Made by a program: the position numbers and the translations under genes. A stretch of DNA of 61,514 nucleotides. Source: Planctomycetota bacterium (lineage in GTDB: Bacteria > Planctomycetota > Planctomycetia > Gemmatales > Gemmataceae). A model generated the notes under the pieces. It was not told the origin of the DNA. It saw only the letters and a program-made list of their open reading frames with translations, and did not search any database. Each line of letters starts with the position of its first letter. Position 1 is the first letter of the stretch. The DNA lies in contig JAKBCS010000010.1 of assembly GCA_021807595.1 (NCBI GenBank), positions 1 through 61,514 on the forward strand, in the 5' to 3' direction. Positions 1,257-37,470 of the stretch are shown here, one piece after another.

Positions 1257-1291
1257 CGCCGCGCTTCTCCGGCCGGTTCCCCGCTATTCGG

Positions 1292-5270: not shown

Positions 5271-6463
5271 GATTCGCCTCCTTGAGAGAGACGGGCCAAA
5301 CGATCTTGGAAGCGCTCCGCGGACTCCCCATCGCCGCTCTCTTGAGCCAGCAACCGGAGGTGTATCAGGGATTCCTCGTGTTGTGGATCGAGGTAGAGGG
5401 CCTTGCGAAAACAAGTCTCCGCCTCCGTCTTCTCCCCCCGCGCGCGGTGAATCACGCCGAGCAGGCTGTACGCCGCCGCCGACGCATCGGCAGTGGATAA
5501 GTGCGTCTTACAGGTGGCCAACGCCGTCTCCAAGGCTCCCGCGTTCGCCTCGGAGCGCGCTCGAAGCATGAGATCGACTTCCGGGCGCGACGTTGGGGGA
5601 ACCCGCGGCGACGACGCCGGGCGCGAAGTACTGCTTCGCCGAGGCACAACGGACACAATGTCTCGCTTTGCCGGTCGCTCGGGAACATGCCGCCGATGGA
5701 ACAGGAACAACTCGTGCGGCCCGAGGGATTGAAAGCGGCCGTTGGTAAAGTTTATCGGCTCGGCATGGCCGGTGCAGACCACGCCGTCCGGAGACAGCCA
5801 AAGCTCGATATGGTCCAGAGCCAAAGCTCTCGCTTCCGCGCAGAGATAAATGAGGACATTGCGGATGAAAATGAGATCGAACTGACCCGCTCCCGCGATC
5901 GAATTGGCATCCAGGATGTTTCCGCGATGGAAGCGAACCAGATTGCGAATCGACTCATCCAACTCCCAGCCGTCCGCCTTCTCGTGAAAGTATTTCCGTC
6001 GCACCGAGAGGGGGGTTTCTCGAAACGACGAATGGCCGAACCATCCGCGCCGCGCTCGCTCGATGTTCCGCGCGCTCAGATCGATGGCCTCCAGCCTCCA
6101 CTGTTCGCGCGGTACGCCGGATTCAACCAGAGACAACGCCAGTGAATACGGTTCTTCTCCCGTGCTGCACGCCGCGCTCAGAATGCGGACGGGGTAGGTA
6201 GCGGCGCGGCGGATGCGCTCCACCAGATAAGGGAATAGTTTGCCTCCGCGAAAGAACCATGTCTCCGAAACGACGAGTTGTTCGACGACCTCCTCGAACT
6301 CGGCAACGGAGTCGGCGAGAATGGCTGCGTAGGCCGAGACCTCGTCCACCTGAAGGGCGCTCATGCGTTGGGCCACGAGATGGGGAAGCACATTCGCGCC
6401 GAGCGACAACGGATCGAGTCCGATGCGTCGGCGCAACCATTCGGCGACGATGGCGACGTTCAT
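5267..6463 (-). CDS. cheR: Chemoreceptor methyltransferase CheR with C-terminal TPRs, WspC-like
   Basis: Transfers methyl groups from S-adenosylmethionine to receptor glutamates. N-terminal helical domain at residues 1-75; methyltransferase domain to about 270, with VVSETWFFR, the SAM-binding motif ILSAACSTGEEPYSLA and FDLIFIRNVLIYL. After a low-complexity linker, residues about 310-390 contain TPR helices (LLGVIHRARGEKTEAETCFRKALYLDP). CheR-TPR is the WspC architecture. The ATG at 6463 overlaps the upstream cheW stop by ATGA; in-frame sequence above it is inside that gene. 398 residues. Confidence 0.93.
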   Translation of the reverse strand: MNVAIVAEWLRRRIGLDPLSLGANVLPHLVAQRMSALQVDEVSAYAAILADSVAEFEEVVEQLVVSETWFFRGGKLFPYLVERIRRAATYPVRILSAACSTGEEPYSLALSLVESGVPREQWRLEAIDLSARNIERARRGWFGHSSFRETPLSVRRKYFHEKADGWELDESIRNLVRFHRGNILDANSIAGAGQFDLIFIRNVLIYLCAEARALALDHIELWLSPDGVVCTGHAEPINFTNGRFQSLGPHELFLFHRRHVPERPAKRDIVSVVPRRSSTSRPASSPRVPPTSRPEVDLMLRARSEANAGALETALATCKTHLSTADASAAAYSLLGVIHRARGEKTEAETCFRKALYLDPQHEESLIHLRLLAQESGDGESAERFQDRLARLSQGGES

Positions 6464-6924
6464 GGCGACTGGCCCCGCGAGAAGTCTGGAAGTTGACGGC
6501 GCATCGAATCCGGCAGCAAGCGCGCGAGGTCGAGCAGGCGCAGCACTCCTTTTTGGTCGACCAAGGCCGCCCCGAGGTCCGGCACTCCGTCCTCGGCAAA
6601 GTGAGTCCGCCGCGCTCCGCCCTCGTCCACTTCTTGGAGATCGGAGACCTCCGAGGCGAGCAGTCCAAGAAGCTGCCCCCCGTTGCCGCCGGGTTGGGGC
6701 ACGAGAATTATACGGCTGTTCAACAAGACGGGACAATCGCCGAGTCCCACCAGGCGGTGGAGGTCGAGGATGGGAACCACGCGTCCCCGATAGACGAGCG
6801 TGCCTACCAACCACGACGGCCCACACGTCAACGCATGGAGGCGCACGCGCGGCGTCACTTCGTGAATGCCGCGCACATCCAACGCGAGGCGGTCGTCGCC
6901 AACCTGAAACACCAGAGCAAGCAT
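6460..6924 (-). CDS. cheW: CheW-type coupling protein, WspB-like
   Basis: Single CheW domain of 154 residues, starting MLALVFQVGDDRLALDVRGI, with the usual later segments GTLVYRGRVVPILDLHRLVG and FAEDGVPDLGAALVDQKG. It should bridge the receptor at 6946-8592 and the CheA hybrid. It follows the receptor gene by only 21 bp and overlaps cheR by ATGA, so co-expression is near certain. Position and size match WspB. Confidence 0.93.
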   Translation of the reverse strand: MLALVFQVGDDRLALDVRGIHEVTPRVRLHALTCGPSWLVGTLVYRGRVVPILDLHRLVGLGDCPVLLNSRIILVPQPGGNGGQLLGLLASEVSDLQEVDEGGARRTHFAEDGVPDLGAALVDQKGVLRLLDLARLLPDSMRRQLPDFSRGQSP

Positions 6925-6945
6925 AACGCGATGGAACCTCGGCAG

Positions 6946-8592
6946 TTAGACTTTGAATTGGCTCACTTCTTGGTTGATCGTTTCGACCGAATGCCGCAGA
7001 TGCTCCGAGGCGCGCTTGAATTCGTCGATGGACGCGCGCGTCTGCCGCGATCCGTCGGTCACTTGCATCATGGCCTCGTTGATCTGCTCGGCCCCCAGAG
7101 CCTGATTGCGCACGCCTTCGTTAACCGAACGGAAGCGTTCGCTGAGGGCGTGGACTTCCTCGATAATCTGTCCGGTTTGTCCGTTGATCTCGGCGATGCG
7201 CGCGACTCCGGAGCGCACGTCTTCGGTAAACTTGTCCATCTGCATGACCCCGGCGGAAACGGCGTCGCGCATGTGCCGCACCATGTTGTCGATGTCCAGC
7301 GTGGCGACGGCGGTTTGATCGGCGAGTCGGCGAATCTCGCGCGCCACCACCAGAAAGCCGCGCCCGTATTCGCCGGCTTTCTCGGCCTCAATGGCGGCGT
7401 TAATGGAGAGCAAATTGGTCTGATCCGCCACTTTGGTTATGGTGGTAACGACCACGTTGATGCCGTCGGCCTTTTCGCGGATGACGCCGAGCTTGGCCGA
7501 CACCGACGCCGTCGCTTGCACCAGTTGTTCCATGGCGCTCTCCATGTCTTCCAACCGCGTTTGGCCCGTGTCGGCAAGGGCGGCGGCGCGCTCGGCGCGC
7601 TCGCTAACCTCGTTCATGGTAGACGATAGCTCTTTGCTCGTCGCGGAGATTTCGCGGACGGAAGCGGCGATCTCCGCCGTCGAACTGCCCAATGAGTGCG
7701 CCGTCGTCTCTTGTTGCCGCGCCGCCGCGCCGATCTGCGACGCGGTGGACAACAGCTCGACGCTCGCCTCGCGGACGCGCTGCACGATCGTCTGAATTTT
7801 ACCGATGGTGGCGTTGATCCCTTCCGCCAAGACGCCAAGCTCGTCGCGGGTCTCCACCGGCAAGCGCGCCGTCAAATCGCCCGCGCCGGCGGCCATGTCT
7901 CGAACGCGGCCTATCAGCGCGTTGGTAGCCACGACGATTCCACGCGCCATCCACCAACCGCCAAGAGACATGATGAGTACCTTGACGACGCTGATGACGA
8001 TCACGGCCGTCAGCCAAAAGCGCATCCTTTCCGTGGCCGTTTTCTCATCGTTTCGGTTGGTTTCCTTGACGACGTTGATACTCCGATCGATAGTTTGGCG
8101 TTGATTCGCATGGCGTGGTTTCAGTTTCTCCATCAAAACCCGCGCCAATTTCGTACGATCCGATTTCCCCACCGAGGGCAAGTAGTCCTCCTTGGCGACG
8201 CGATAGAACTCGTGCATCGAAGGGAAAACCTCATTCGTCAAGATCCGCTTGGTCGGGCCCTCGTAAAGATTCTCTTGCCAGTAGCTCTCGCGCTCTCGAA
8301 AGTGGCTTTCGTGCCTCGCAAACTGTTTTTTCATCGCCTCGATCTCGTCGGCGTCGGTGGCCAGGCTCATCTCGATTAACAGCCTATAAGGATCGGACAT
8401 ATCGAACGTGGCCGGTTCCAGTTCGGCGAGTACCAACGTGCGGAGCATGAGATGGTCGTAGACTGGACCATTCACGCGGTACTCGTGAAGCACCCACAAT
8501 GAGAGAGCGAGTACGGCCACGAAAAGCGAGGTGCTGATGATCACCAGACTGCGTAGTTTGGTGTTGATCGTCGTGTCGGAATAGCGTGACAT
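6946..8592 (-). CDS. Methyl-accepting chemotaxis protein, WspA-like
   Basis: Membrane receptor of the operon, 548 residues. TM1 at about 15-35, a helical extracytoplasmic sensor of about 150 residues that looks like a four-helix bundle, TM2 at about 190-212, HAMP to about 265, then the signalling coiled coil. The tip is present near residues 395-430 (NLLSINAAIEAEKAGEYGRG, a common variant with EYGRGF instead of EQGRGF). The chain ends shortly after the second methylation helix with no CheR-tethering pentapeptide. The 192-bp gap before the upstream phosphatase gene may hold its own promoter. Confidence 0.93.
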   Translation of the reverse strand: MSRYSDTTINTKLRSLVIISTSLFVAVLALSLWVLHEYRVNGPVYDHLMLRTLVLAELEPATFDMSDPYRLLIEMSLATDADEIEAMKKQFARHESHFRERESYWQENLYEGPTKRILTNEVFPSMHEFYRVAKEDYLPSVGKSDRTKLARVLMEKLKPRHANQRQTIDRSINVVKETNRNDEKTATERMRFWLTAVIVISVVKVLIMSLGGWWMARGIVVATNALIGRVRDMAAGAGDLTARLPVETRDELGVLAEGINATIGKIQTIVQRVREASVELLSTASQIGAAARQQETTAHSLGSSTAEIAASVREISATSKELSSTMNEVSERAERAAALADTGQTRLEDMESAMEQLVQATASVSAKLGVIREKADGINVVVTTITKVADQTNLLSINAAIEAEKAGEYGRGFLVVAREIRRLADQTAVATLDIDNMVRHMRDAVSAGVMQMDKFTEDVRSGVARIAEINGQTGQIIEEVHALSERFRSVNEGVRNQALGAEQINEAMMQVTDGSRQTRASIDEFKRASEHLRHSVETINQEVSQFKV

Positions 8593-8784
8593 TGAAGGCT
8601 TTCACAAACGGGATTAAGCCTGCCGTGGCGAAACGCATCTCTTGGGATTCAAGAATCTATTATCCACACACTTTGCCTATTTTGCCATAGCTTGCACCGA
8701 GGATCGCGACGTAAAGTTGACGGGGTCGCGGATTCTACGACAGGGACAAGGAAAGTGATAGAGGTGAAGGAATCGCGTCAGCCG

Positions 8785-9984
8785 TCAAAATCGGACTTCC
8801 AGCACCGAGTAATCGTCGGCGAGAAGGTCGCTGCCGTGCCGGAGACGGACGTGGGTCAACAATCGCTCTCCGAGCGAGCCGTCGTCGCGCTCGAGGGTCG
8901 AGAGAAACCGAACGAAATCTTGATGCTTCCACATATCGCCCTCCGGTGTCTCGATCTCGAAAGCTCCGTCGCTGTAGATCAACAGCCTGGCGTAGGTTCC
9001 CAAGGCGATGGAGCGCGTTTCAAACGACGTGCCGGGAGGCAACATGCCGATGAGAGGATCGGTCGAATCGAGGGTGGCGAGCGTCGCCTCGGAAGACGAG
9101 GCCCCCGACCACAACAACGGCGAGGGATGCGCTGCATTGCAGTAGGCGAGATTGCGGTCGCCGAGTCGAAAGACGCCGTACCAGATGGTGAAATACTTGC
9201 CGTCTTGTCGGTCCATCTGAAAGACATCGTTGAGGCGAGAGAGAACCTTTCCCGGATCCCGGAAGTCGGTATTCGGCAGCGATTGCGAGTCTAACACGTT
9301 CGTGGCCGAGACGGCCAACAGCGACGAACCGACGCCGTGGCCGCTCACATCGAGCAAATATAGCGCCAGATGCTCGCGGTCGAGCCAGTGATAGCCGAAC
9401 ATATCGCCGCCCAGCTGCGTGGAGGGCACGAAAGTTCCTCTCGCGCCGACGGCTCCGGCGAGCGGTTGCGGCAACAACGATTGGACGTAGCGGGAGGCTC
9501 CGGCCAATTCCTGGGCCATCAGCTGCTCGCTCTCGGCGAGGCGGCGATAGGCTTCGTCTCGCTCCAAAAGATTGAGGTAGCTGCGCGAGTGATAGCGGAT
9601 GCGCGCGATAAGTTCGATGGGGTCCGGCAGCTTGACAAGATAATCGTTCGCACCGAGCGCGAACGCCTGCGCCTTGATCGTCGGCTCCTCTTTGGAAGAC
9701 AGCACGATCATGGGGACTTGGCGCGTGCCCGGATTGACGCGGAAGAACTTCACCAGCGTCAGACCATCCACCTCCGGCATGACGAGATCTTGCAGAATCA
9801 CCGTGGGTTGGACGACGTTCGCGGTCTCGACGGCGCGAGCCGGATCGGAGCAAAAGTGATAGACGATGTCTTTTTCCGCGGCCAACATGCGCCGCACAGC
9901 TTCGCCGACAATCGGTTGATCGTCGACGAGGAGAACGGTGACGGGGCGGGGGGAAGACGTTTTCGCGATTTGGGGTTGTGTCAT
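8785..9984 (-). CDS. Response regulator with WspR-type receiver and SpoIIE/PP2C phosphatase output
   Basis: Receiver at residues about 14-140 with acceptor D66 (VILQDLVMPEVDG), then a short helix, then a PP2C-type (SpoIIE/RsbU) Ser/Thr phosphatase domain at about 170-399 with QLGGDMFGY, LYLLDVSGHGVGSSL, NAAHPSPLL, IYSDGAFE and a final LLADDYSVLEVRF; the metal-binding aspartates are visible. The receiver carries segments remembered almost word for word from WspR: GANDYLVKLPD, ELIARIRYHSRSYLNLL and DEAYRRL. WspR itself ends in GGDEF. So the output appears to be dephosphorylation of a partner, typically an anti-sigma antagonist, rather than c-di-GMP synthesis. No STAS or anti-sigma gene lies in the window. 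First gene of the operon in transcription order. The ATG at 9984 fits the family length. Confidence 0.93.
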   Translation of the reverse strand: MTQPQIAKTSSPRPVTVLLVDDQPIVGEAVRRMLAAEKDIVYHFCSDPARAVETANVVQPTVILQDLVMPEVDGLTLVKFFRVNPGTRQVPMIVLSSKEEPTIKAQAFALGANDYLVKLPDPIELIARIRYHSRSYLNLLERDEAYRRLAESEQLMAQELAGASRYVQSLLPQPLAGAVGARGTFVPSTQLGGDMFGYHWLDREHLALYLLDVSGHGVGSSLLAVSATNVLDSQSLPNTDFRDPGKVLSRLNDVFQMDRQDGKYFTIWYGVFRLGDRNLAYCNAAHPSPLLWSGASSSEATLATLDSTDPLIGMLPPGTSFETRSIALGTYARLLIYSDGAFEIETPEGDMWKHQDFVRFLSTLERDDGSLGERLLTHVRLRHGSDLLADDYSVLEVRF

Positions 9985-10003
9985 GCGCGGAGCCTTTATG
10001 CCG

Positions 10004-10912
10004 TTATGCCGAGTCGGCCAGCCTTGCGGAAGACTCCGCCTCGACGAGTTCCTCGAACGAGGTCTCGCAAGGGTTCCAGACGGAGCAATGGCCGCCGCAC
10101 TTGCCGGCCAGGCGCGTCAGCCGCGCGAAGAAATCGTCGGCGCGCAGGGAAGCGAAGTCCTTCTGAGCCGGCCGCCGACACTCGCAAATATCATAGGCCA
10201 ACTTGTCGGCGTCCGCCACTGCCGGGATGCCGCGTAGATACGAGGCAAGATCGACTTGGGCGAGATCCATCAAGCGGTCGTAGTCGAGAATGGGGACGTT
10301 GTGCCGGTGGGCGTCCTTGAGGAGCTTGTAGTAATAGATGACGAAGGCCGCTACCAGACGTTTGGCGATGGTGTCAGCTTGCTCGACGGCGAAATCGACT
10401 AGAACGCGCACGTCCGGTTCCAAGGTCCAACGATTTCGCAGCAGCGAGGAATACATCGCGTCGTACCACGCCTTTACCGGCAGGCGGCTCCCCGGCAGCG
10501 ACAACTCGGCGCGGCGATACAACACCACACAATCGAAGCGCGTCACAAACCAGTTGAGTTTGAAGCCGCTGTAGTTCTCCTTGGTGAAGTTATAGTTCTC
10601 CTTGGCCCAGGTTTGTTGGTACACCTTCTCGTGGTGACCGCCAGCCTTGGCAATCATGGCGTAATTGTCGACCATCTCGCATCCGAACGCTCGATTCAGC
10701 ACGTTCTCGTGATGGGGATTGCATATAGGATTAAAATACTCTCGGTAGTATCTCAAGTACGGGTTCTGGCGTAAAAGCATGTCCGCGAACCAATCGGTTC
10801 CCGTATTGGGCAGCGATAACAGGGCGATCGGACGGTGCGAGGGCGAGGGGGCATTCGCCTCAAGGAGAGGTTCATTTCCCACGCCGTCGAAGGAGGATCG
10901 TGCTTCTTGCAT
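10004..10912 (-). CDS. Sulfotransferase-like protein
   Basis: The N-terminal motif LLSLPNTGTDWFADMLL at about residues 31-47 fits the PAPS-binding loop of sulfotransferases (LPxxGTxW). Further fold elements are weak: a DVRVLVDFAVEQADTIAKRL segment and IPILDYDRLMD-like PVLxYExL sequence. The C-terminal quarter is Cys-containing (CECRRP, CGGHCSVWNPC). 302 residues. It lies 19 bp upstream of the phosphatase-regulator gene in position but reads as the last gene of the glycan cluster, 44 bp after the GT4 gene, which suggests it sulfates a surface sugar. The substrate cannot be told from sequence. Confidence 0.7.
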   Translation of the reverse strand: MQEARSSFDGVGNEPLLEANAPSPSHRPIALLSLPNTGTDWFADMLLRQNPYLRYYREYFNPICNPHHENVLNRAFGCEMVDNYAMIAKAGGHHEKVYQQTWAKENYNFTKENYSGFKLNWFVTRFDCVVLYRRAELSLPGSRLPVKAWYDAMYSSLLRNRWTLEPDVRVLVDFAVEQADTIAKRLVAAFVIYYYKLLKDAHRHNVPILDYDRLMDLAQVDLASYLRGIPAVADADKLAYDICECRRPAQKDFASLRADDFFARLTRLAGKCGGHCSVWNPCETSFEELVEAESSARLADSA

Positions 10913-10956
10913 ACCCGTGTGCCTGCTAAGGAGTTAAAGGATCGTGAATTCGTCGC

Positions 10957-12546
10957 TTACAACCGTGCCGCCCCCGCGCTCTGCAACTCGGGCAACGGCG
11001 TCTCGGATTGTCGGCGCATGGCGTCGTCGCGGGCATCGAGGTAGAACTGCTCGCGCAAGCGTGCGTAATGTTCGTGAGGCGAGAATAGGCGCGAACGGCC
11101 CGCCAACGCGGAGGCGAGGATAGATGGGTCGGCGACAACCCCGCGGAGCTTGGCATAGAGGTCGGCCCGCGAACCGGCGCGAAAGACGAGATCGGGGCAG
11201 CCGAGCAACTCTTGAGCGCCGCCGCGATCCGAGGTCAGAATCGGCACGCCGGAAGCCACGCACTCGATGGCCACCTGCGGGAGATTGTCTTCCCAGAGAA
11301 CCGGAACCACGGCGAGATCGACCCCTGCGAGCAGTTCGGGCAGCTGGTTGTGCGTGTAGCCGTCGTAAAACGCGACGGAGGCGAAGCGATGGGCCACGCG
11401 CTTGATTTGCGCGCAAGCGTGCGGATCCACGATCTTGGCCGCGAACGTGAGCGCGAGCCGGCGCGCCAGACTCGCCGGCATCTTTTCCAGAGCTTTCAGA
11501 TAGAAATAAAACCCTTTGTCGCGCCGCATGTATCCGAGATAGGCCAAACGCAGCGGTTGTCCGCGAACGATGGGTTTGGTTGCGGTAGCGTCCGTCATGC
11601 GTTCGGCAAAGCGCGTGCCGATATACAGCGTTTGCACCTTGGCCGGGTCGATGCCAAACCCCACGGTCAAGTCGGCGACGCGTTGGGAGACGGGTAGAAT
11701 GGCATCGACGTAACCGTTCAGGGCATCGACGAACGCACGCCGCCGCTGAGCGAATCGATCCGCGGCGGCGGGATCGAGTATGGCCGTGGCTTGGGTGGCG
11801 CGGCGCGCTCCCCACGATGGATCGGGCTTACCTTGCCGACCCGCCTTATACCAGCGATAGCCGGATCGAGCGACGTGATAGAGGCTGCGGAGAAAACCAA
11901 AGATTGCCCAATTGGCAAAACGATGCGTCACCGAATAGGGTGAGATGCCGAGCATGGCGAGCAGATACTCCAAGCGATATTGTCGTTGTGTGCCGCGCGG
12001 ATGCAACAGATGCGTAAGACAATTGACGCACTTTCGCCCGGCGCGGAAATCGCGGCAGGTCGCTTGCTCCTGAAACCACAGATTGACCTGCGGACAAAAG
12101 GCAAAATAATTGTGGACGCTGTAGATAATCTTTGTCTGTGGATAATGCTCGCGCGCTAGGCGCAGAAACGACAGTGGAATGCCTTCGAGGTTGTTGAAAT
12201 GGATCACGTCGAACGGGCCGTAATCGCGTAGAAAATCGGCGAACAGAGGGTCCATCTCCGGCGACTGCGCCACATCCTGTCCGAAGGCTTCTTGGCCGGG
12301 ACTGAGGATCGTGGAGTTGACCATTTCAAACTTGCGGACTCCCTGAGTCTTCGATGCGGCTTCGCGGACATGGGGCTTGCGCGAGAAGGGGCTGTAGCAA
12401 ACGCCGGAACTGAAATACCAGACGTCGTCGCCGTTTCGCACGGCGGCGTCGATGACATTGCGCTGATAAATGGAGACGCCGCCGCCCCGGCGTTGCTCGT
12501 CCTCGAAATCGACCCAATTGTAGTAGAGTATTTTGAGCTTGCGCAT
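10957..12546 (-). CDS. Glycosyltransferase family 4
   Basis: Retaining GT-B glycosyltransferase. The N-terminal domain has an early glycine-rich loop (RRGGGVSIYQRN) and a CPQVNLW...C...CVNC cysteine cluster seen in a subset of GT4 proteins. The C-terminal domain has LRLAYLGYMRRDKGFYFYLKAL, a VAFYDGYTHNQLPELL segment and PVLWEDNLPQVAIECVASG with the donor-binding E-x7-E region, followed by VPILTSDRGGAQELLG. The TTG at 12561 is in frame, but the ATG at 12546 has GAGGAAAGC upstream and I prefer it. 529 residues. Part of the glf cluster. Confidence 0.9.
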   Translation of the reverse strand: MRKLKILYYNWVDFEDEQRRGGGVSIYQRNVIDAAVRNGDDVWYFSSGVCYSPFSRKPHVREAASKTQGVRKFEMVNSTILSPGQEAFGQDVAQSPEMDPLFADFLRDYGPFDVIHFNNLEGIPLSFLRLAREHYPQTKIIYSVHNYFAFCPQVNLWFQEQATCRDFRAGRKCVNCLTHLLHPRGTQRQYRLEYLLAMLGISPYSVTHRFANWAIFGFLRSLYHVARSGYRWYKAGRQGKPDPSWGARRATQATAILDPAAADRFAQRRRAFVDALNGYVDAILPVSQRVADLTVGFGIDPAKVQTLYIGTRFAERMTDATATKPIVRGQPLRLAYLGYMRRDKGFYFYLKALEKMPASLARRLALTFAAKIVDPHACAQIKRVAHRFASVAFYDGYTHNQLPELLAGVDLAVVPVLWEDNLPQVAIECVASGVPILTSDRGGAQELLGCPDLVFRAGSRADLYAKLRGVVADPSILASALAGRSRLFSPHEHYARLREQFYLDARDDAMRRQSETPLPELQSAGAARL

Positions 12547-12557
12547 GCTTTCCTCAA

Positions 12558-14417
12558 TCAAGGGACCAGGTTCGTCTCCGTTTGGCTCGGCGCAAAATGG
12601 GCCGCCTCCTCGCCGACGGAATGGCAGTCAAGGACGTTTAAGTGTCGCGTCCAGAACGCGGACTTTGTCAGCGGTTTGCTGCCGCCCCGCCAGGCGCGCG
12701 CGACGCGACGGTACGACAACCACAACCGCAGCGCCAGCCACGCGCCTCGAATCAGACCGCGGACGAAGCGGCCTCGCGAGCGGCGAATCACGAGACATTC
12801 GGGGCGATGCGTTTCGTCCACGGCCACGACATCGGCATCTTCCACGTCGTACCATTGCTCGCCTCCTCGGAGCGTTCGTTGCGGAACCGCATCGGCTGGA
12901 GGACTGGAGCGAGCGAGATTGCGGACGACGAGTCGCCAACGTCCCCAGCGCGTCGCCCGGCCGCGATCGGAGGGGCGTGGAACGCTCGAGGGACCAACGG
13001 CATCGCGCGGACAGGTTGGCGGCGAGAACGACCGCGCGAGCGCGGCGACGCGGCGATGCAGCGCGGCCCCCTCCTCGGCCAGAGCCGTCGGGCCACGCAG
13101 ATAGGCCGCCGCCGCCTCGCACATCAGATGTGCTTCGCCGTAGTCGAACGTCAGCAACTCGTCGAGCAACCGGCTGAAAAACTGCCGTGCTACCGTGCGG
13201 GCAGCGATGTCGGGAAAGTGGAGCGCGCCGACGATTAAAAGATTGCGTAACTCGTAAAAAGGATGCCAGCTTCGCCCTTTGCCCTCGAACGACTCGTGCC
13301 AGACGGCAATCCCCGGCAGCGCGACTGTGGCAATGCCATTGCGGAGTAAGCGACATCCATACTCCACATCGTCGCCGCGTAGGAACAGCGGTAGCGGCAA
13401 ACCGGCGCGCTCCAGCGCCGGCCGAGAAAAGGCATGGAACCACCAGCCGTTATAGTGCCTCGGCTCCGGCTCCAGAAAAGGTTGCAGCCCATCGGGTCGA
13501 TCGACGCGCCTTCTTCTCGGCTCGTCGATGCGGATTCGATCGGGCCGATACCGGCTGCCGCACTCGACCAGCACCCGCGGTTCCGACCGATCGAGCATGT
13601 GTCCACCGAGGGCGACTTCTTCGCGCGCCAGCGATAAAAAGGCGGCCGCGCGGACGATGGACTCGGTCTCCAACACGATGTCGTCGTCCATGAACAATAC
13701 GTGCGTGGCGGTAGATTCCTTGCGTGCCTCCAGCAGGCTGCGCGTGAAGCCGCCCGCGCCGCCGCGATTCGACTGTTCGATCCATCTCAGGCGCGAGCCG
13801 GCGAGGGAAGCCAGCCGAGCATGGCGGGGATGATCGCGGACCTTTTCCTCTCCCTGATCGACGACGATGACGCACTTCAACCATTTCAGCGCGAACTCGT
13901 CGGCGAACAATCGATGGAGATTCGCAAGAAGCAAGCCGGCGCGGTTGAAGGTGCAAAGAGCGGCGACGAAACGCACGGGGCGCGGCTCCACCTCGCGGGC
14001 AAACCACTCTGCCTTCGACAACCGCGTCGATTGGCCGTGGGAGACGATCTCGAAATACAGGAGCCCCTCGCCGGGCGGAACGTCCATCTCAAGCGTCGAT
14101 TCATCGTGCCGAACCGAGAAATCGCGCTCACAAACCAACATTGCTGCGCGCTCGCGCGTTCGTCGATAGATTCGCGCCACCCCCGAACCTCGAACCCGAA
14201 GCCGCAGGGCAAGATGCCGCAACGCGGTATATTCGCGCCAATAGCTTTCGTAAAAGGCGTTGAAAAACGTATCGGTTCGCACCGTCGCATTCCGGGACAA
14301 TTCGAGCGCGCACCGTCCCAGTTGCCGCACTTCCGACGCTCGTTGGCACCGATAGTACAGTCGTCTCAGGCATCGTTTGGACGGCATCACGGTGCGCTGT
14401 AGGATGCGCTCGATCAT
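12558..14417 (-). CDS. GlfT2-like galactofuranosyltransferase (GT2)
   Basis: GT-A enzyme probably transferring galactofuranose from UDP-Galf. The N-terminal beta-rich domain (1-160) precedes VRFVAALCTFNRAG, the DXD-type motif LFMDDDIVLE near 240-250, YNGWWFHAFSR, RGDDVEYGCRL and WHESFEGKGRSWHPFYELRN. The DDD, WW, DDxE and HE elements and the overall length (619 versus about 637 residues) follow mycobacterial GlfT2, the polymerising galactan enzyme. It sits 9 bp after glf in the same operon, which supports UDP-Galf as donor. In organisms with O antigens, related enzymes add single Galf residues, so polymerisation is inferred only. C-terminal part (about 500-619) contains a basic helical tail. 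Confidence 0.85.
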   Translation of the reverse strand: MIERILQRTVMPSKRCLRRLYYRCQRASEVRQLGRCALELSRNATVRTDTFFNAFYESYWREYTALRHLALRLRVRGSGVARIYRRTRERAAMLVCERDFSVRHDESTLEMDVPPGEGLLYFEIVSHGQSTRLSKAEWFAREVEPRPVRFVAALCTFNRAGLLLANLHRLFADEFALKWLKCVIVVDQGEEKVRDHPRHARLASLAGSRLRWIEQSNRGGAGGFTRSLLEARKESTATHVLFMDDDIVLETESIVRAAAFLSLAREEVALGGHMLDRSEPRVLVECGSRYRPDRIRIDEPRRRRVDRPDGLQPFLEPEPRHYNGWWFHAFSRPALERAGLPLPLFLRGDDVEYGCRLLRNGIATVALPGIAVWHESFEGKGRSWHPFYELRNLLIVGALHFPDIAARTVARQFFSRLLDELLTFDYGEAHLMCEAAAAYLRGPTALAEEGAALHRRVAALARSFSPPTCPRDAVGPSSVPRPSDRGRATRWGRWRLVVRNLARSSPPADAVPQRTLRGGEQWYDVEDADVVAVDETHRPECLVIRRSRGRFVRGLIRGAWLALRLWLSYRRVARAWRGGSKPLTKSAFWTRHLNVLDCHSVGEEAAHFAPSQTETNLVP

Positions 14418-14426
14418 TGGAGAACC

Positions 14427-15593
14427 TCACCCGGCCACGCTTTCGAGCGTTCTAGCCCAGAAGGGAACGACCTTTTTACGAAAATCGCTGAGTGCCGAGG
14501 CGATGGCCTGGTGCATGTCGAGGTACTGATACGAGCCGAGCCTCCCGCCGAAGAGAACATTGTTCTCGCGGGCGGCCAAACTCCGATAAGCGGAGAACAT
14601 CTGACGGTCCCGCGCGGTATTCACCGGATAGTACGGTTCGTCGTCTCGACGCGCGCGGCGCGAGTATTCGCGGCAAATCAGCGTGCGATCCGACGGATGG
14701 CGTCGTTCCGGATGCAGGTGCTTGAACTCGTGGATGCGCGTATGCGGCACTTCCTCGTCCGCGTAGTTGACCACGGCGGCCCCCTGATAGTCGTCCACGC
14801 CGACCGCTTCGCGTTCGAAGTCGAGCGTTCGCCAGCTCAATTCGCCCAGTCGATAGCCGAAGTAGCGATCGATCGGGCCACTGTAGACGACGAGTTGATG
14901 GGGGAGCAACGAATCGCGGGCGTCGAAAAAATCGACACCCAAGCGGAGATCAATACAAGGCGAATCGAGCATACGGCGGAAGACGGCCGTATATCCGTCC
15001 ACCGGCAACCCTTCGTATTGGTCGGTAAAATAGTACGGATCGAAGGTGAAGCGCACGGGCAAGCGCGCGATGATGCTCGCCGGAAGCTGGCGCGGATCGG
15101 TCTGCCACTGTTTCTTTGTGTAGCCGCGAACGAACGCCTCATAGAGCGGCCTACCGATGGAGGCGACCGCCTTCTCTTCGAGATTGTCCGGGTTCAAACG
15201 CGCCTCGGCATCCGCCTGGCCACGAACTAATTCGCGCGCCTCCGTCGGCGTCATGTGACGACCGAAAAAAGCGCAGATGGTGCCAAGGTTGATGGGCATC
15301 GGATAGACTTGGCCCTTGTGAACGGTTAGCACGCGATGGCGGTATTGGGTGAAGCTGGTAAAGCGTTGGAGATAGCGCCACACCTCTTCGCTATTGGTGT
15401 GAAATAAATGCGATCCGTATTTGTGATATTCGATGCCGGTACTCGCGTCGGTCTCGGAGTAGCAATTGCCGCCGATGTGCGAACGACGTTCCAGCACGCA
15501 CACAGTTCGACCCAGGGAAGCGATGCGTTCGGCCAGGGTAGCGCCGTAGAATCCCGCGCCGACAATAATCGCGTCGTAGTCGCGCAGCGCCAT
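14427..15593 (-). CDS. glf: UDP-galactopyranose mutase
   Basis: Flavoenzyme interconverting UDP-galactopyranose and UDP-galactofuranose. N-terminal FAD-binding motif DAIIVGAGFYGATLAERIA, then SHIGGNCYSE and IEYHKYGSHLFHTNSEEVW, in which the active-site His region is kept. Later family segments: YTKKQWQTDP, LPVRFTFDPYYFTDQYEGLP, YSGPIDRYFGYRLG, EYSRRA and DEPYYPVN, and GGRLGSYQYLDMHQAI near the C-terminus. 388 residues is normal. The ATG at 15593 has GGGAGG 7 bases upstream. The neighbouring GlfT2-like gene gives the use of its product. Confidence 0.97.
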   Translation of the reverse strand: MALRDYDAIIVGAGFYGATLAERIASLGRTVCVLERRSHIGGNCYSETDASTGIEYHKYGSHLFHTNSEEVWRYLQRFTSFTQYRHRVLTVHKGQVYPMPINLGTICAFFGRHMTPTEARELVRGQADAEARLNPDNLEEKAVASIGRPLYEAFVRGYTKKQWQTDPRQLPASIIARLPVRFTFDPYYFTDQYEGLPVDGYTAVFRRMLDSPCIDLRLGVDFFDARDSLLPHQLVVYSGPIDRYFGYRLGELSWRTLDFEREAVGVDDYQGAAVVNYADEEVPHTRIHEFKHLHPERRHPSDRTLICREYSRRARRDDEPYYPVNTARDRQMFSAYRSLAARENNVLFGGRLGSYQYLDMHQAIASALSDFRKKVVPFWARTLESVAG

Positions 15594-30504: not shown

Positions 30505-30626
30505 TTTCCGATCGCTCGCTTCTTCCTGCGGGGTTTCCATTTCGATTTGTGCGTGGGTGAAAGAGGCTTTCGAGACCGATGCTCAAAACCGCCTTCGCCC
30601 GAGGTGGCGAGGCAAGGCAGCGCGAC

Positions 30627-31973
30627 ATGAACCCCTGGCTCGGCGTGATCCTGATGCTAACGGCGCTGGGCGCGTGGATGACCGTCTTGAGCCGCTTCCA
30701 GTCGCTGGCTCAGCCGCACCCGGAGGTGGTCCGCAAGTTGATGCACGTCGGCATGGGGTTGACCGTGCTGGCCTTTCCGTGGTTGTTCGACGATGTCTGG
30801 CCGGTGGTGTTGGTCATCGCATCGTCGCTGGGATTGTTGGCGACGGTGCGTTTCGTATCGGGGCCGCGTTCTCAGATGGGAAGCGTTCTGGGCGGCGTGG
30901 CCCGCAAGTCGCTCGGTGAATTTTACTTCGCCATCAGCGTGGCGGCGCTGTTCGTGTTGTCGCGCGGGCAGCCCTATGCGAACATTTTGTACGGCGTGCC
31001 GTTGCTCGTTCTCGCACTGGCCGATGCCGTGGCCGCACTGATCGGCGTGGCCTATGGGCGCTTCCAGTACACAACTGTGGACGGCATCAAAAGCGCCGAG
31101 GGGTCCACGGCCTTCTTTCTCGCCGCCTTCTTCAGCGTCCATGTGCCGTTGCTCCTGGCGACCGATGTGGGCCGTGCCGAGACGCTGCTCATCGCCCTGA
31201 TCGTCGGCTTCCTCATCATGCTTTTCGAGGCCATTGCCTGGCGCGGTCTCGACAACTTGTTTATCCCGCTCGTCTGTTTTCTGATATTAAAGATCTATCT
31301 CGGTCCTCCTTGTATGGATTTGGCGGCTCTGCTCGCTCGCGCGGCGGCGTTGCTGGCTCTGTTCGCCTTCCTGTTGATCTGGCGTCATCGTTCGACGTTG
31401 GACGCCAGCGGCGTGTTGGCGGCGGCTCTGGTCGGCTACCTCGCGTGGGCATTGGGAGATTGGCGTTGGCTGGTATTTCCAACGGCATTGTTCCTCACCT
31501 ATACCCTGCTCTCGCCGCGCACGGAGATCAACAGTAGGCGCGTCCACAATGTCCACGCCGTCGTGAGCGTGTCCGCGGCCGGCTTGATTTGGCTGTTCCT
31601 GGCCCGCACGCTCAACCGGCCCGAACTGATGCTGCCCTACGCCATCGCCTTCGCCGCCAACTTGGCCATCGTCGGTGTGGCGCGCCTCCGTCACGACTAT
31701 CCTCAGCGTTCGCCGACGGCGATCTTGGTCGCGTGCATTGTCAAGGGTTGGCTCATCCTCTTCGTACCTTTCGCTCTCATCGCGGAGTTTTCGCCGTCGC
31801 CCATAGCCTGTGGCCTGACCGCGTTGGCGGGGGTGGCTACCGCGGCACTGTTGTTTCATGCCACGCAGCCCGGCATGGAAGACTGCGCCACCGACACGCC
31901 GCGTTGGCTCCGTCAGGCCGGCTCCTCCGCACTCGGCTCGACTCTCGGTCTGATTCCCCTCTACTTTTTCTAG
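30627..31973 (+). CDS. Phytol/dolichol kinase-like integral membrane protein, possibly bifunctional
   Basis: 448 residues, about twelve membrane segments. The N-terminal half (1-230) shows phytol/dolichol kinase features: VVRKLMHVGMGL, ALADAVAALIGVAYGRFQYT and IKSAEGSTAFFLAAF, the last being the conserved glycine/acidic loop of CTP-dependent polyprenol kinases. The C-terminal half (240-448) is a second multi-spanning domain with LDASGVLAAALVGYLAWALGDW and RRVHNVHAVVSVSA, reminiscent of DUF92 (the VTE6 phytyl-phosphate kinase family); this second match is weak. The ATG at 30627 fits the first helix; in-frame upstream sequence looks non-coding. First gene of a probable four-gene lipid operon. 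Confidence 0.7.
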   Translation: MNPWLGVILMLTALGAWMTVLSRFQSLAQPHPEVVRKLMHVGMGLTVLAFPWLFDDVWPVVLVIASSLGLLATVRFVSGPRSQMGSVLGGVARKSLGEFYFAISVAALFVLSRGQPYANILYGVPLLVLALADAVAALIGVAYGRFQYTTVDGIKSAEGSTAFFLAAFFSVHVPLLLATDVGRAETLLIALIVGFLIMLFEAIAWRGLDNLFIPLVCFLILKIYLGPPCMDLAALLARAAALLALFAFLLIWRHRSTLDASGVLAAALVGYLAWALGDWRWLVFPTALFLTYTLLSPRTEINSRRVHNVHAVVSVSAAGLIWLFLARTLNRPELMLPYAIAFAANLAIVGVARLRHDYPQRSPTAILVACIVKGWLILFVPFALIAEFSPSPIACGLTALAGVATAALLFHATQPGMEDCATDTPRWLRQAGSSALGSTLGLIPLYFF

Positions 31974-31981
31974 GAGCAACC

Positions 31982-32983
31982 ATGTCTCAATTTGTCCAGC
32001 CGACGAACGCTGCCGACTTGGAGGCGTTTTGCTCCTTGCCCGGATTGTCCCCTTTGCATCCCGAAACGATTGCCCGGCAGCGCCCCGACGCGCAGTGGAT
32101 GCTGCGAACGACGAAGGGCACGGTCGTCGCCCGTTGCTCGCTGTGGTGGAGCGACCTCCCGGAACACGAAGGCCAGCGACTCGGCTACCTCGGCCACTAC
32201 GCCGCATGCGATTCCCCATCCGCTGCCGAACTGCTCGACCGAGCCTGCGCGCAGCTGACTCAACACTGCACTCTGGCAGTCGCGCCCATCGACGGAAATA
32301 CTTGGAATCGCTATCGCCTGCTCACCGAGCGCGGCACGGAGCCGCCGTTTTTTCTCGAACCGGATAACCCCGACGAGTGGCCGGCGCACTTTACTAGCAA
32401 CGGCTTCACGCCGTTGGCGAATTACTATTCGGCGCTCAATGAAGACCTCCGCCGGTCGGACCCGCGCACCGAGGAAATGATGCGCCATCTGACCGACCGG
32501 GGCATCCGTCTCCGGTGTCTCAATCTGGATCGCTTCGAGAGCGAGCTGCGCGCCCTGTGGCGTCTGGCCTTGGCCAGTTTTCAGCAGAATTTTCTGTACT
32601 CGCCGATCTCGGAAGAGGATTTCCTGGCGCAATACCTTCCCCTCCGTCCCCACTTACGTCCGGAGTTGGTGCTAATAGCAGAAAAAGAGAGTAAACCCAT
32701 CGGATTCATGCTCGGCGTTCCGGACTTGTATCAATCGCGGCGCGGGCGCGCGGTGGATACCGTCATCCTCAAGACCGTGGCCGTCGATCCGGAGCAAGCG
32801 GGCGGCGGTCTGGGCACGCTCCTCATCGCCCACTGTCAGGACAAAGCGGCACAACTGGGTTACAAGCGAGCCGTTCACGCCTTGATGTACGAGGCCAATC
32901 GGTCGAGGCGGATCAGCAGCCACACGGCTCAAACGATTCGCCGCTACACCCTGTTCGCTCGCCCGTTGGAGGTGAGGCCATGA
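31982..32983 (+). CDS. GNAT-family acyltransferase
   Basis: 333 residues. The C-terminal half has the acetyl-CoA fold: ELVLIAEKESKPIGFMLGVPD, VILKTVAVDPEQAGGGLGTLL with the pyrophosphate-binding loop QAGGGLG, and YKRAVHALMYEANRS. The N-terminal half looks like a degenerate second GNAT unit (WMLRTTKGTVVARCSLWW). It starts 8 bp after the kinase-like gene and overlaps the next gene by ATGA, so it belongs to the same transcript. The acceptor is unknown; lipid amines or amino alcohols are possible given the neighbours. Confidence 0.82.
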   Translation: MSQFVQPTNAADLEAFCSLPGLSPLHPETIARQRPDAQWMLRTTKGTVVARCSLWWSDLPEHEGQRLGYLGHYAACDSPSAAELLDRACAQLTQHCTLAVAPIDGNTWNRYRLLTERGTEPPFFLEPDNPDEWPAHFTSNGFTPLANYYSALNEDLRRSDPRTEEMMRHLTDRGIRLRCLNLDRFESELRALWRLALASFQQNFLYSPISEEDFLAQYLPLRPHLRPELVLIAEKESKPIGFMLGVPDLYQSRRGRAVDTVILKTVAVDPEQAGGGLGTLLIAHCQDKAAQLGYKRAVHALMYEANRSRRISSHTAQTIRRYTLFARPLEVRP

Positions 32984-34560
32984 ATATCGCCGAGATCCTC
33001 GCGGCGCGGGCGGCGGATTGCCCCAACGATGTCGCCATTCTCGATGCTTCCGGGCGCGGGGAGCGCTCGATCACCTTCGCGGAACTGGACCGCGCCGCCG
33101 CCCGTTGTGCCACGCTTCTGGAACAAAACGGCCTGCGGTTCGGAGATGCCGTGCTGGTGTTTCAACCGATGTCGGCAGAACTGTATGTGGCTCTTCTGGC
33201 CGTGTTCCGCCTCGGACTGATCGCCATGTTCCTCGATCCCTCGGCCGGACGCGAGCATATGGAACGATGCTGCGCCCTGCACCCGCCGCGCGGCTTCATC
33301 GCCGGTACCAGGGCGCACCTGTTGCGCCTCTTCTCCCCCGCGCTCCGCCGCATCCCTCGCAAGTTTGTCATCGGCTTGCCCGTGCCGGGCGCGGTTCGTT
33401 GGCAACGCGCCGACTCGCTTGCACCCAGGACGCCGATCGAGACGGTATCGCCAGAGACACCCGCTCTGCTGACCTTCACCAGCGGCAGCACGGGACAGCC
33501 CAAGGCCGCCGTGCGCAGTCATGGGTTTCTGGTGGCTCAGCATCGCGCCCTGGCCGATAGCCTGCACCTCACTCCCGGCGAGATCGATGTCGCAACCATG
33601 CCCATCGTGTTGTTGGCCAACCTCGCTTCCGGCGTGACGAGCCTCATCCCCTCCGTTGACTTGCGCCATCCGGGTTCCATCGATCCCGTTCCCCTTATCG
33701 CCCAAGTTCGGAAGCATAAGGCGGTCAGTTCCGTTGCCTCGCCCGCCTTTTTCGAGCGATTGACTCGCCATTGTGTCGATCGCGGATTGACGCTGCCAAG
33801 TTTCACGAAGCTATTCACCGGCGGCGCTCCGGTCTTTCCGCGCCTGCTCGAACGGATGCAGGCGATGGCTCCCGCCGCCGACGTTGTGGCCGTCTACGGT
33901 TCGACCGAGGCCGAGCCGATCGCCCACATCTCGCACCGCGATATGTCCGAGGCCGATCATCGCCTTATGCTCGCCGGCAAGGGGCTTCTTGCCGGATTGC
34001 CGGTCGCCGCAATCCAGCTACGAATCCTGCGCGACTCGTGGGGGAGGCCCGTGGGTCCGTTCGACGCCGAAGGGTTCGATAGCCATTGTCTTTCCGCCGG
34101 CCAGCCCGGTGAGATCGTCGTCAACGGCGGCCACGTCTTGCCGGGCTACCTGCACGGACAGGGCGACGAAGAAACCAAGTTCCGCGTGGACGGCGCGGTC
34201 TGGCATCGCACGGGAGACGCGGGCTACCTGGACGATACGGGTCGCGTCTGGCTGCTGGGCCGTTGTACCGCTCGCATTGAGGACGATCGAGGAATCCTCT
34301 ACCCCTTTGCCGCCGAAACCGCCGTCTATCAGGACGCGCGCGTTCGCCGCGCGGCCACGATCGCCCATCGGGGACGGCGGATTCTCGCCGTCACGTTTTA
34401 TCCCAGCAGTGTTCCCGTCGATTTGACGGCACTCAAGACTTCGCTGGCCTGGACGCAGCTCGACGAGATCCGGGTTTTCCCCGATCTGCCGGTGGACAAA
34501 CGGCACAACGCCAAGATCGACTATCCAAGTCTCCTTAGGATGGTGGATCGATCGCATTGA
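32980..34560 (+). CDS. OleC-like AMP-dependent synthetase/ligase
   Basis: Adenylate-forming enzyme of 526 residues. The AMP loop is LLTFTSGSTGQPKAAVRSHG near 165-184. The central part follows OleC, the beta-lactone synthetase of long-chain olefin biosynthesis, as I remember it: PGEIDVATMPIVLLANLASG, HPGSIDPVPLI, SVASPAFFERL, LFTGGAPVFP, VAVYGSTEAEPIA. The C-terminal lid has WHRTGDAGYLDDTGRVWLLGR and a final lysine motif DKRHNAKIDY. OleA, OleB and OleD were not seen in the window, so an acyl-activating role on another substrate remains possible. Confidence 0.82.
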   Translation: MNIAEILAARAADCPNDVAILDASGRGERSITFAELDRAAARCATLLEQNGLRFGDAVLVFQPMSAELYVALLAVFRLGLIAMFLDPSAGREHMERCCALHPPRGFIAGTRAHLLRLFSPALRRIPRKFVIGLPVPGAVRWQRADSLAPRTPIETVSPETPALLTFTSGSTGQPKAAVRSHGFLVAQHRALADSLHLTPGEIDVATMPIVLLANLASGVTSLIPSVDLRHPGSIDPVPLIAQVRKHKAVSSVASPAFFERLTRHCVDRGLTLPSFTKLFTGGAPVFPRLLERMQAMAPAADVVAVYGSTEAEPIAHISHRDMSEADHRLMLAGKGLLAGLPVAAIQLRILRDSWGRPVGPFDAEGFDSHCLSAGQPGEIVVNGGHVLPGYLHGQGDEETKFRVDGAVWHRTGDAGYLDDTGRVWLLGRCTARIEDDRGILYPFAAETAVYQDARVRRAATIAHRGRRILAVTFYPSSVPVDLTALKTSLAWTQLDEIRVFPDLPVDKRHNAKIDYPSLLRMVDRSH

Positions 34561-34830
34561 ATAGGGGTTGAAAGCTCCTCACATCCTGACTCTCATGAGA
34601 GGAGCGAGGAGTTAGCGAGGGAGACATGAAGCAAACGGAGGCAGCCCGATCGGAACCTCCCCTGTCGCCGGGGACCGAACGGTAGGTAATGATCGCGGCC
34701 TTCCTCGCGTCGGGCATAACGCCGATCGACGAGAAGGCCTGGCTCAGAGCCTTAGAGGCAACCCTTTTGCCCAAGGGAAGGCCCCGAGCGACCGAAAAGC
34801 CGCTCCCGCGAATTCCGAAGGATGACGGTT

Positions 34831-37470
34831 ATGGATTCCTCCCTGGGCGCGCCCCGTTGGGCCGAGCAAACCGTGCGGTACTTCCGCCATCTTCTGTATG
34901 GCATCGGCACGTTTTTTCTCGCCACGCAGTTCGCGGCGTGGACGGGGCGGATACCTCACTTGCAGCCAGTATCGTTTCGGGAAATCACGGCGAACATCCT
35001 TTTCGCGATCGGTTTCGGCTGCCCCCTGGTGCTGCACCTGAGCGGTCTGCCACGCTGGCGGGAAATCGGCGGAACGCTCGTTCTCGGTCTGCTGTTGGCA
35101 TTTCTCTTCTGGGGCCTTCAATGCTGGTTCGGTTTGCCGCCCGCGCTGGCTCCCGGCGAGGTCGCCGCCGCCCAATCGATCGTCGGCCTCGGCCTTGCCA
35201 GTCTTGGCACTCTGTCTCTGCGCGCCTGGCGCGGAAGCGGCACGGATCGAACGAGAGCGCTGCTGTATCTGTTGCCGGCTTGCGTGGCTCTCGTCTACAC
35301 CTTCGAGGCCGGGATTTTCTTGAGCTTCATCAAGCGTTTTTCGCCGACCTCGCACGACGCGGACGCCTATGTCCTGGACTCCGCCTTCGGAATGCAGCCG
35401 AGCTTTGCCATCGGTCGGCTTTTCGCCGCTCTCCCGCCGCTTCGATGGGTGTGCTTCGCCATTTATGTGGCTCCGCCTCCCGCTCTTGTCTTCGTTTTCG
35501 CCTTGCAGACCAGGGCGCGGAGACCGCCGCCCGTCGATGTGGTAACGGTACTCCTCTTCATGGCGCTGTGCGGCTACGGATTCTATTTTCTCTACCCCGT
35601 CTGCGGGCCGTTGTTCGCCTTCGGCGACGCTTTCCCCAATGCGCCGCCCCAGGCGGAAGTTCGACTCGGCCAACGGCTCACCATCGCCAACAAGGACGCC
35701 TGGCCCAACGGCATGCCGTCCCTGCACCTGGCCTCGGTAATCCTCGCCGCTTGGCACGCTTGGCCCTATGGCCGAGGGGCGCGGATCGTCGCAGCCATTT
35801 TCGTTATCGGCACCTTCCTGGCGACGCTCGGGTTGGGCGAGCATTATTTCGTGGACTTGGTGGTCGCCCTGCCGTTTACCCTGGCGCTCCATGCGGGTTG
35901 TATGCCGGGCTGGCATAGCCTGCGCCGGCCGAGGCGCGAAGCCTTCCTGGGAGCGGTCGGACTCGTTGCCGTCTGGTACGCGATCCTATTCTTCGGCATC
36001 CCACTGTTGCGAATCTCCCCCGCGCTTCCGTGGAGTCTGACGCTTACCACCGCCGGGGCCGTCGTCTATCTGGAACGACGGCTCTCCCGCGCGATTGGAG
36101 ACTCCGTCGAGACCGATGTGCTTCCGAAGACCGCCCCCGGCCCGCGCGGCCATCTTCTTCTCGGCAATCTGTTGGAGTTTCGCAAAGATGTCTTGCAACT
36201 CCTGATGGACGGGCCTCGACGCTTCGGAGATGTGGTCCGCTACCGTCTCGGCCCCGTCATCGTCCATCTGGTTAGCCATCCCGATCACATTCGACACGTC
36301 TTGCTGACCCGGCACGAGGTTTACAACAAAGACACTCGCAGCTCGGCCAAAATTCGTTCCATAACCGGCGAGGGGTTGTTGACCGGCAACGGCGATTTCT
36401 GGCTGCGCCAGCGACGGCTCATGCAGCCTACCTTCTCGCTCCAACGCTCGGACCGCTTCGCCGGCGTCATGGCGCAGTCCACGACGCGGATGCTCCAACG
36501 CTGGAGCGAAGAAGCGAAGCGAGGGCAGCCGATCGACATCGCCTCGGAGATGATGGCCCTGACGTTCACGATTGTCGGCAAAGCCCTCTTCGGCGCGGAA
36601 CTCGGCGGAGAGGCGGAGTCGGTGGAGCGCTCCTCGACACAAATTTTGGAACATACCTGGAAGCGGCTGGAGAAGTTGATCGAACTGCCGTTCTGGATCC
36701 CCAGCGCGAGTTCCCGACGGTTCCAGAGGGGATTGCGCGATCTCGATCGCATCGTTCATCGCCTGATCGCCGAGCGAAGAAAGGAGAGCATCGCTTCCAA
36801 CGATTTACTGGCACTTCTACTGCAGCGCGCCGACGAGGAGACTGGATATCGCATGACCGACGAGCAACTGCGGAACGAAACGCTGACGCTGTTGCTGGCC
36901 GGTCACGAGACTTCGGCCGTTGCCCTGACCTGGACGTGGTATCTGCTCTCGAAGCATCCAGCCGTCCGACGCCGCTTGACCGACGAGGTTTCCGAAGTGT
37001 TGGAGGGCAGAATACCCACCGCCGAAGACTTGCCCCGTCTCGTCTACACGACCATGGTTTTCAAGGAAGCCATGCGCCTCTATCCGCCAATCTGGATCAT
37101 GGAACGCCGCGCCCTGGAGGAAGACATCCTCGACGGCTATACCATTCCAGCCGGTTCCTCGGTCGTCATCAGTCCTTACGTTACGCACCGCGATCCACGT
37201 TTCTGGGAGAACCCCGAAGGATTCGATCCCGAACGCTTTGCGCCGCAGGCTTCGGAGGATCGAAACCCTCACTGCTACATCCCGTTCGGCCTCGGTCAAC
37301 GCCTGTGTATCGGCAACCATTTCGTTCTGATGGAGGCACGGATCATCCTCGCCGCCATCGCGCAGACATTCCGCCTCGACCTCGTGCCCGGCCATCCCGT
37401 CGAGCCGAAGCCGGGCATCACCCTGCGGACGCGCCACGGTCTCCCGATGATCTTGCATCCCGCAGGGTAA
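34831..37470 (+). CDS. PAP2-type lipid phosphotransferase fused to cytochrome P450
   Basis: 879 residues. Residues 1-400 form a multi-spanning domain with the PAP2/inositolphosphotransferase motifs PSLHLA (S297, H299) and GEHYFVDLVVA (H338). After a further membrane hairpin, residues about 430-879 are a complete P450: PGPRGHLLLGNLLEF, WLRQRRLMQPTF, I-helix AGHETSAVALTW, K-helix ExxR in KEAMRLYPP, PERF, and heme loop FGLGQRLCIG with Cys826. Both halves keep catalytic motifs and no stop or frameshift separates them. ATGs at 34822 and 34831 compete; GAAGG at 34817-34821 favours 34831. It follows the OleC-like gene by 270 bp with no other gene between. The product should place the P450 at the membrane acting on the lipid handled by the PAP2 half. 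Confidence 0.9.
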   Translation: MDSSLGAPRWAEQTVRYFRHLLYGIGTFFLATQFAAWTGRIPHLQPVSFREITANILFAIGFGCPLVLHLSGLPRWREIGGTLVLGLLLAFLFWGLQCWFGLPPALAPGEVAAAQSIVGLGLASLGTLSLRAWRGSGTDRTRALLYLLPACVALVYTFEAGIFLSFIKRFSPTSHDADAYVLDSAFGMQPSFAIGRLFAALPPLRWVCFAIYVAPPPALVFVFALQTRARRPPPVDVVTVLLFMALCGYGFYFLYPVCGPLFAFGDAFPNAPPQAEVRLGQRLTIANKDAWPNGMPSLHLASVILAAWHAWPYGRGARIVAAIFVIGTFLATLGLGEHYFVDLVVALPFTLALHAGCMPGWHSLRRPRREAFLGAVGLVAVWYAILFFGIPLLRISPALPWSLTLTTAGAVVYLERRLSRAIGDSVETDVLPKTAPGPRGHLLLGNLLEFRKDVLQLLMDGPRRFGDVVRYRLGPVIVHLVSHPDHIRHVLLTRHEVYNKDTRSSAKIRSITGEGLLTGNGDFWLRQRRLMQPTFSLQRSDRFAGVMAQSTTRMLQRWSEEAKRGQPIDIASEMMALTFTIVGKALFGAELGGEAESVERSSTQILEHTWKRLEKLIELPFWIPSASSRRFQRGLRDLDRIVHRLIAERRKESIASNDLLALLLQRADEETGYRMTDEQLRNETLTLLLAGHETSAVALTWTWYLLSKHPAVRRRLTDEVSEVLEGRIPTAEDLPRLVYTTMVFKEAMRLYPPIWIMERRALEEDILDGYTIPAGSSVVISPYVTHRDPRFWENPEGFDPERFAPQASEDRNPHCYIPFGLGQRLCIGNHFVLMEARIILAAIAQTFRLDLVPGHPVEPKPGITLRTRHGLPMILHPAG

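Follow-up and report, generated by a model that had tools for sequence, protein, structure and literature searches.

A single gene joins a PAP2_3 membrane domain to a cytochrome P450 in the window, by which we mean the whole 61,514-nt stretch of DNA analysed here. We consider it reasonably probable that its product is a bifunctional membrane enzyme in which an outer-face, Aur1-like PAP2_3 domain and a tethered cytosolic P450 both tailor one lipid pathway.

The fusion gene and its fused and split relatives

An uninterrupted frame runs from 34822 to 37470 on the forward strand. Of its two possible starts, ATG 34831 is better than the upstream ATG 34822 because it has AAGG 9 nt upstream and because the protein starts of relatives align to it without gaps: its first 21 residues match the starts of the separate PAP2 protein of genome G060 and of the fused protein of G063. 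The resulting gene (34831..37470, +) encodes 879 aa, and motif positions below are numbered on this protein. An initial annotation had read the frame as a PAP2 domain joined to a complete P450, which the open frame and Pfam bear out, with matches to PAP2_3 (PF14378, E 9.8e-19, 68.3 bits against a curated cut-off of 27) and p450 (PF00067, E 5e-91, 306 bits against 22.8). The N-terminal membrane domain (34831..36075, +) has 12 predicted transmembrane helices, with the PAP2_3 match at about 35371-35895. It is followed by a linker of about 20 residues (aa 416-437; 36076..36141, +) and by the P450 domain (36142..37467, +), which is supported by both Pfam and structure matches.

Catalytic residues are intact in both halves, as had been claimed, and the motifs named in the annotation (PSLHLA and GEHYFVD, AGHETS, ExxR, Cys826) were each found in place. 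The PAP2 half carries YPVCGP (255; 35593..35610, +), around which Tyr252, Pro256 and Pro260 are invariant in 19 PAP2_3 relatives, PSLH (296; 35716..35727, +) with His299 as the catalytic histidine of the PAP2 fold, and GEHYFVD (336; 35836..35856, +) with His338, Tyr339 and Asp342. All positions of the catalytic PS.H and HY..D motifs (P296, S297, H299, H338, Y339, D342) are invariant in the 19 sequences. In the P450 half we found the I-helix motif AGHETS (690; 36898..36915, +), the ExxR motif KEAMR (745; 37063..37077, +) and the haem loop FGLGQRLCIG (819; 37285..37314, +) with the axial Cys826. The cysteine, ExxR and the oxygen-binding I-helix motif are kept in all five P450s of the cluster described below.

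The fusion is real and not an assembly error. The same join is present in two independently assembled genomes, G039 (90% identity over 882 residues) and G063 (57-58%), and dN/dS between the window and G039 (0.18 in the PAP2 part, 0.34 in the short linker, 0.16 in the P450 part) places both halves under purifying selection. Although the halves are separate genes in two relatives (G060 and G043), a frame or assembly error as the origin of the fusion is thereby ruled out, leaving it practically no probability.

In G060 and G043, PAP2 and P450 are adjacent genes with a 4-nt overlap (ATGA) at the place that corresponds to the linker. Fused G063 pairs with split G060 in the P450 tree (support 100/100), and these two belong to one genus with 77-79% identity in each half, while the fused genes of the window's own genus (window and G039) form a sister pair. 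Fused and split forms are thus interleaved, so fusion or fission must have occurred at least twice. Two independent fusions and a single fusion with later fissions both fit the tree; we consider the former likelier since the split genes show the overlap of an ordinary coupled operon. Loss of the ATGA overlap, in which the stop of one gene meets the start of the next, would then have produced the fusion.

As the halves are separate genes in two relatives, covalent linkage is dispensable, and the earlier suggestion that it points to sequential action is not supported in that form. The fusion might even be a neutral by-product, in which overlapping neighbours were joined and the domains act independently in one pathway through a functionless link. 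We give this a chance not far short of even: one split relative (G060) is congeneric with fused G063, and the linker differs in length between the two fused lineages (60 nt in the window and G039, 78 nt in G063). However, the window's genome and G039, which share a genus, both keep the linker frame, and at least two changes of fusion state among five genomes could also reflect selection. If there is a gain from fusion, it is probably co-expression and membrane anchoring of the P450 rather than channelling. The natural occurrence of fused and split versions in one genus makes a direct test of the contribution of fusion possible.

Identity and predicted topology of the two halves

A single-sequence search of the PDB returned no match for the PAP2 half, and Aur1 was found only by profile and fold searches. 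A profile built from the 19 PAP2 relatives matched AUR1 best (E 7e-10), followed by PgpB (E 5e-8). Since the fold matches listed for the whole fusion were all P450s, the PAP2 half was modelled alone (pLDDT 81.7, pTM 0.81). This model matched inositol phosphorylceramide synthase (Z 14.4) and Aur1-Kei1 (Z 14.2) ahead of LpxE (Z 12.2) and PgpB (Z 10.3). The Aur1-fold matches span 239-244 residues at an rmsd of 5.6-6.3, with unrelated entries at Z 6 and less, in a setting where helical bundles score high; Foldseek alone gave no significant E-value, its best match (0.078) also being inositol phosphorylceramide synthase. Aur1 aligns to residues 3-358. Past that stretch, two final helices (about 362-430) connect to the P450. 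Judged by profile and by fold, Aur1 is the nearest solved relative of the PAP2 half.

The PAP2 half had been annotated as either a lipid phosphatase or a head-group transferase. Of these, a transferase fits through the proximity to Aur1, and a phosphatase stays a close rival. The domain might be a periplasmic lipid phosphatase with a substrate such as a prenyl (di)phosphate or a lipid phosphate, the freed alcohol being oxidised or acylated afterwards. PgpB and LpxE follow closely behind Aur1, and a kinase-like partner together with a UbiA prenyltransferase in the gene set hints at prenyl phosphates, but Aur1 comes first by both methods over an alignment that extends far past the PAP2 core, and the YPxxGP region is invariant across PAP2_3 relatives. 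We put the probability of a phosphatase at about one in three.

Among solved structures, CYP184A1 comes nearest to the P450 half (36% identity over about 459 columns), followed by fatty-acid and carotenoid P450s (BM3, CYP4B1, CYP97).

Hydropathy averaged over five relatives, with the PSLH helix, indicates 12 helices, and both structure models agree. Mean loop charge is positive for the N-terminus, loops 2-3, 4-5, 6-7 and 10-11, and the tail, and near zero or negative elsewhere, which is the alternation expected of 12 helices with both ends inside. By the predicted topology, PSLH and HYxxD would face outward, whereas the P450 would sit in the cytoplasm. Electron donors for P450s are found in the cytoplasm.

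With the two sites predicted on opposite membrane faces, a simple hand-over is unlikely. This bears on the initial proposal that the fused enzyme hydroxylates and phospho-transfers on one and the same lipid molecule. Its broader part, a shared pathway, seems likely from the gene set described below, whereas direct hand-over is disfavoured by the predicted topology. Covalent linkage and the shared gene set speak for sequential action, while the opposite faces, the split homologues and a related cluster that has a P450 without PAP2 (locus L023) speak against it, and we regard it as improbable.

A lipid-type gene cluster in Planctomycetota

In the window, the fusion gene comes after KIN, a membrane protein and operon partner (30579..31973, +), a GNAT acyltransferase (31982..32983, +) overlapping the next gene by 4 nt, and an OleC-like AMP-forming ligase (32980..34560, +) assigned by Pfam and the OleC model. 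KIN matched no meaningful solved structure and gave only a sub-threshold Pfam match to DUF92, in its C-terminal half; its KS-EGS motif, which is conserved, is reminiscent of the phytol/dolichol kinase (CTP-transferase) group. A remnant of an MFS transporter gene (34689..34832, +) lies between ligase and fusion, in which the first and last codons of a drug-transporter-type gene are joined at a GGC microhomology (internal deletion of ~1.39 kb, scar near 34737). The MFS gene is intact at this position in G039 and absent in G060.

G060 carries on one contig the genes for HMG-CoA reductase, UbiA, a PEP-synthase-like protein, a BtaA-like protein (DUF3419), KIN, GNAT, ligase, PAP2 and P450, as a contiguous operon with a few small genes interspersed. 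The window genome (G000) has the first four on another contig, C229 (L084 5586-11680, G000:C229), and KIN, GNAT, ligase and fusion in the window. In G043 and G063 the seven core genes are together with PAP2-P450 on a different contig, which counts against our preferred reading.

Across 95 family genomes, PAP2, GNAT and the ligase clade (at least 65% identity) occur in the identical five (G000, G039, G043, G060, G063), and KIN, UbiA and the BtaA-like clade (at least 66%) in these and also in G028, a MAG of 82% completeness. HMG-CoA reductase was found in the same six, hereafter the cluster genomes, whereas 14 further genomes tested lacked it. Under an independence model, the five PAP2 genomes would fall within the six UbiA genomes with a chance of about 1e-7, a figure weakened by relatedness. 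The gene set is absent from close relatives in both genera (G037 and G038; G061, G062 and G064-G066), so its presence changes as a unit. PAP2 and P450 were found only with this lipid-type gene set, which makes a shared pathway likely. G001 holds a more distant PAP2 relative (about 32%) outside this gene setting, and elsewhere in the phylum the 392 sampled genomes held only distant relatives of this subfamily (about 23-42%).

The seven-gene core, or the portion left by contig ends, was also found in five further genomes from three other planctomycete families, with neither PAP2 nor P450 at the locus. PAP2 and P450 are thus accessory, which again weighs against our preferred reading. Locus L023 (JAEUIH010000033.1, Planctomyces sp. 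MAG-38), from a second planctomycete family, has a P450 that shares 44% identity with the one in the G060 cluster and is located between BtaA-like and UbiA genes, adjoined by PEP-synthase-like, ligase and GNAT genes, with no PAP2 within the 17 kb seen. The P450 is therefore tied to the pathway by two lines of evidence and PAP2 by one.

The L023 locus (187-15452) is a variant cluster: its P450, UbiA and BtaA-like genes have around them two PEP-synthase-like genes and class III aminotransferase-like and sulfotransferase-like genes, the latter two named by eye from their sequences. At the more distant loci L112 (2702-11339) and L111 (4201-6971), UbiA is paired with an OleC-like ligase, in L112 also with a PEP-synthase-like gene, while HMG-CoA reductase, BtaA-like and KIN genes are missing; these loci perhaps represent a related pathway.

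In eight cluster proteins, the HMG-CoA reductase keeps the four catalytic residues known from the human enzyme: Glu, Lys (DKK), Asp (GQD) and, in the C-terminal AH motif, His. HMG-CoA synthase (PF08540) was found in none of 20 genomes, all six cluster genomes included, while controls were found, and mevalonate diphosphate decarboxylase (TIGR01240) stayed under the cut-off in all six. A role in the canonical mevalonate pathway is thus unsupported, with neither enzyme found above cut-off. The substrate is then either HMG-CoA supplied by some other route, for instance leucine breakdown, or a different thioester.

Proposed function and comparison with known systems

In the bifunctional enzyme we favour, the PAP2_3 half would be a phospho-head-group transferase (or a phosphatase) whose active site lies at the outer side of the cytoplasmic membrane, and its C-terminal helix would carry a fatty-acid-type P450 on the cytosolic side. 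The P450 may oxidise a hydrophobic chain inside, while PAP2 may transfer a phospho-head group or remove a phosphate outside; the opposite faces fit sequential action poorly. The pathway core would comprise GNAT, the OleC-like ligase, HMG-CoA reductase, the UbiA prenyltransferase, a PEP-synthase-like phosphotransferase, a BtaA-like aminocarboxypropyl transferase and the prenol-kinase-like protein, and the product would be an amino-lipid with an isoprenoid part. More tentatively, and with less than an even chance of being right as a whole, the fused enzyme might finish an undescribed planctomycete lipid. The core would build it from an isoprenoid transferred by UbiA, a homoserine-like unit of the BtaA type and an acyl group, HMG-CoA reductase would work outside the mevalonate pathway, the Aur1-like domain would add a phospho-head group and the tethered P450 would oxidise the chain. 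Planctomycetota are a phylum with known unusual membranes. If our reading is right, P450s have a new kind of domain partner here, which points to a lipid pathway of this phylum that has yet to be characterised, and the orphan HMG-CoA reductase, the BtaA-like enzyme and the bacterial Aur1-like domain offer concrete genes for experiment. A literature search, with most subscription journals outside its coverage, found no report of a PAP2-P450 pairing or of the gene cluster.

Individual components resemble known systems to different degrees. The window ligase scores 211 bits on the NCBIfam model of OleC, the olefin beta-lactone synthetase, far under the cut-off of 900, and the cluster ligases form a separate group. 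The DUF3419 protein of the cluster matches PF11899 (E 1.9e-70), the family that also includes BtaA of betaine lipid synthesis. Unlike BtaA, its gene sits with UbiA and HMG-CoA reductase, and no BtaB-kind methyltransferase was seen beside it. Aur1, inositol phosphorylceramide synthase (PDB 9vj3/9vj4, 9ivc), has the same PS.H and HY..D catalytic motifs as the PAP2 half, which is, however, bacterial and only 16-18% identical, has two extra C-terminal helices leading into the P450 and shows no Kei1-type partner. CYP184A1 of Streptomyces avermitilis (7wzl; 7wzm with oleate) was solved as a lone P450, whereas the P450 of the window is joined to a membrane enzyme. Covalent union of a P450 with another domain is known from natural fusions, namely CYP102A1 with its reductase, and PpoA/CYP6001 and CYP5619 with a haem peroxidase/dioxygenase, the PpoA type likewise combining two lipid-modifying activities (PMC5919972). 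In contrast to these, the window protein has no fused redox partner, and its P450 is joined instead to an integral-membrane PAP2_3 domain.
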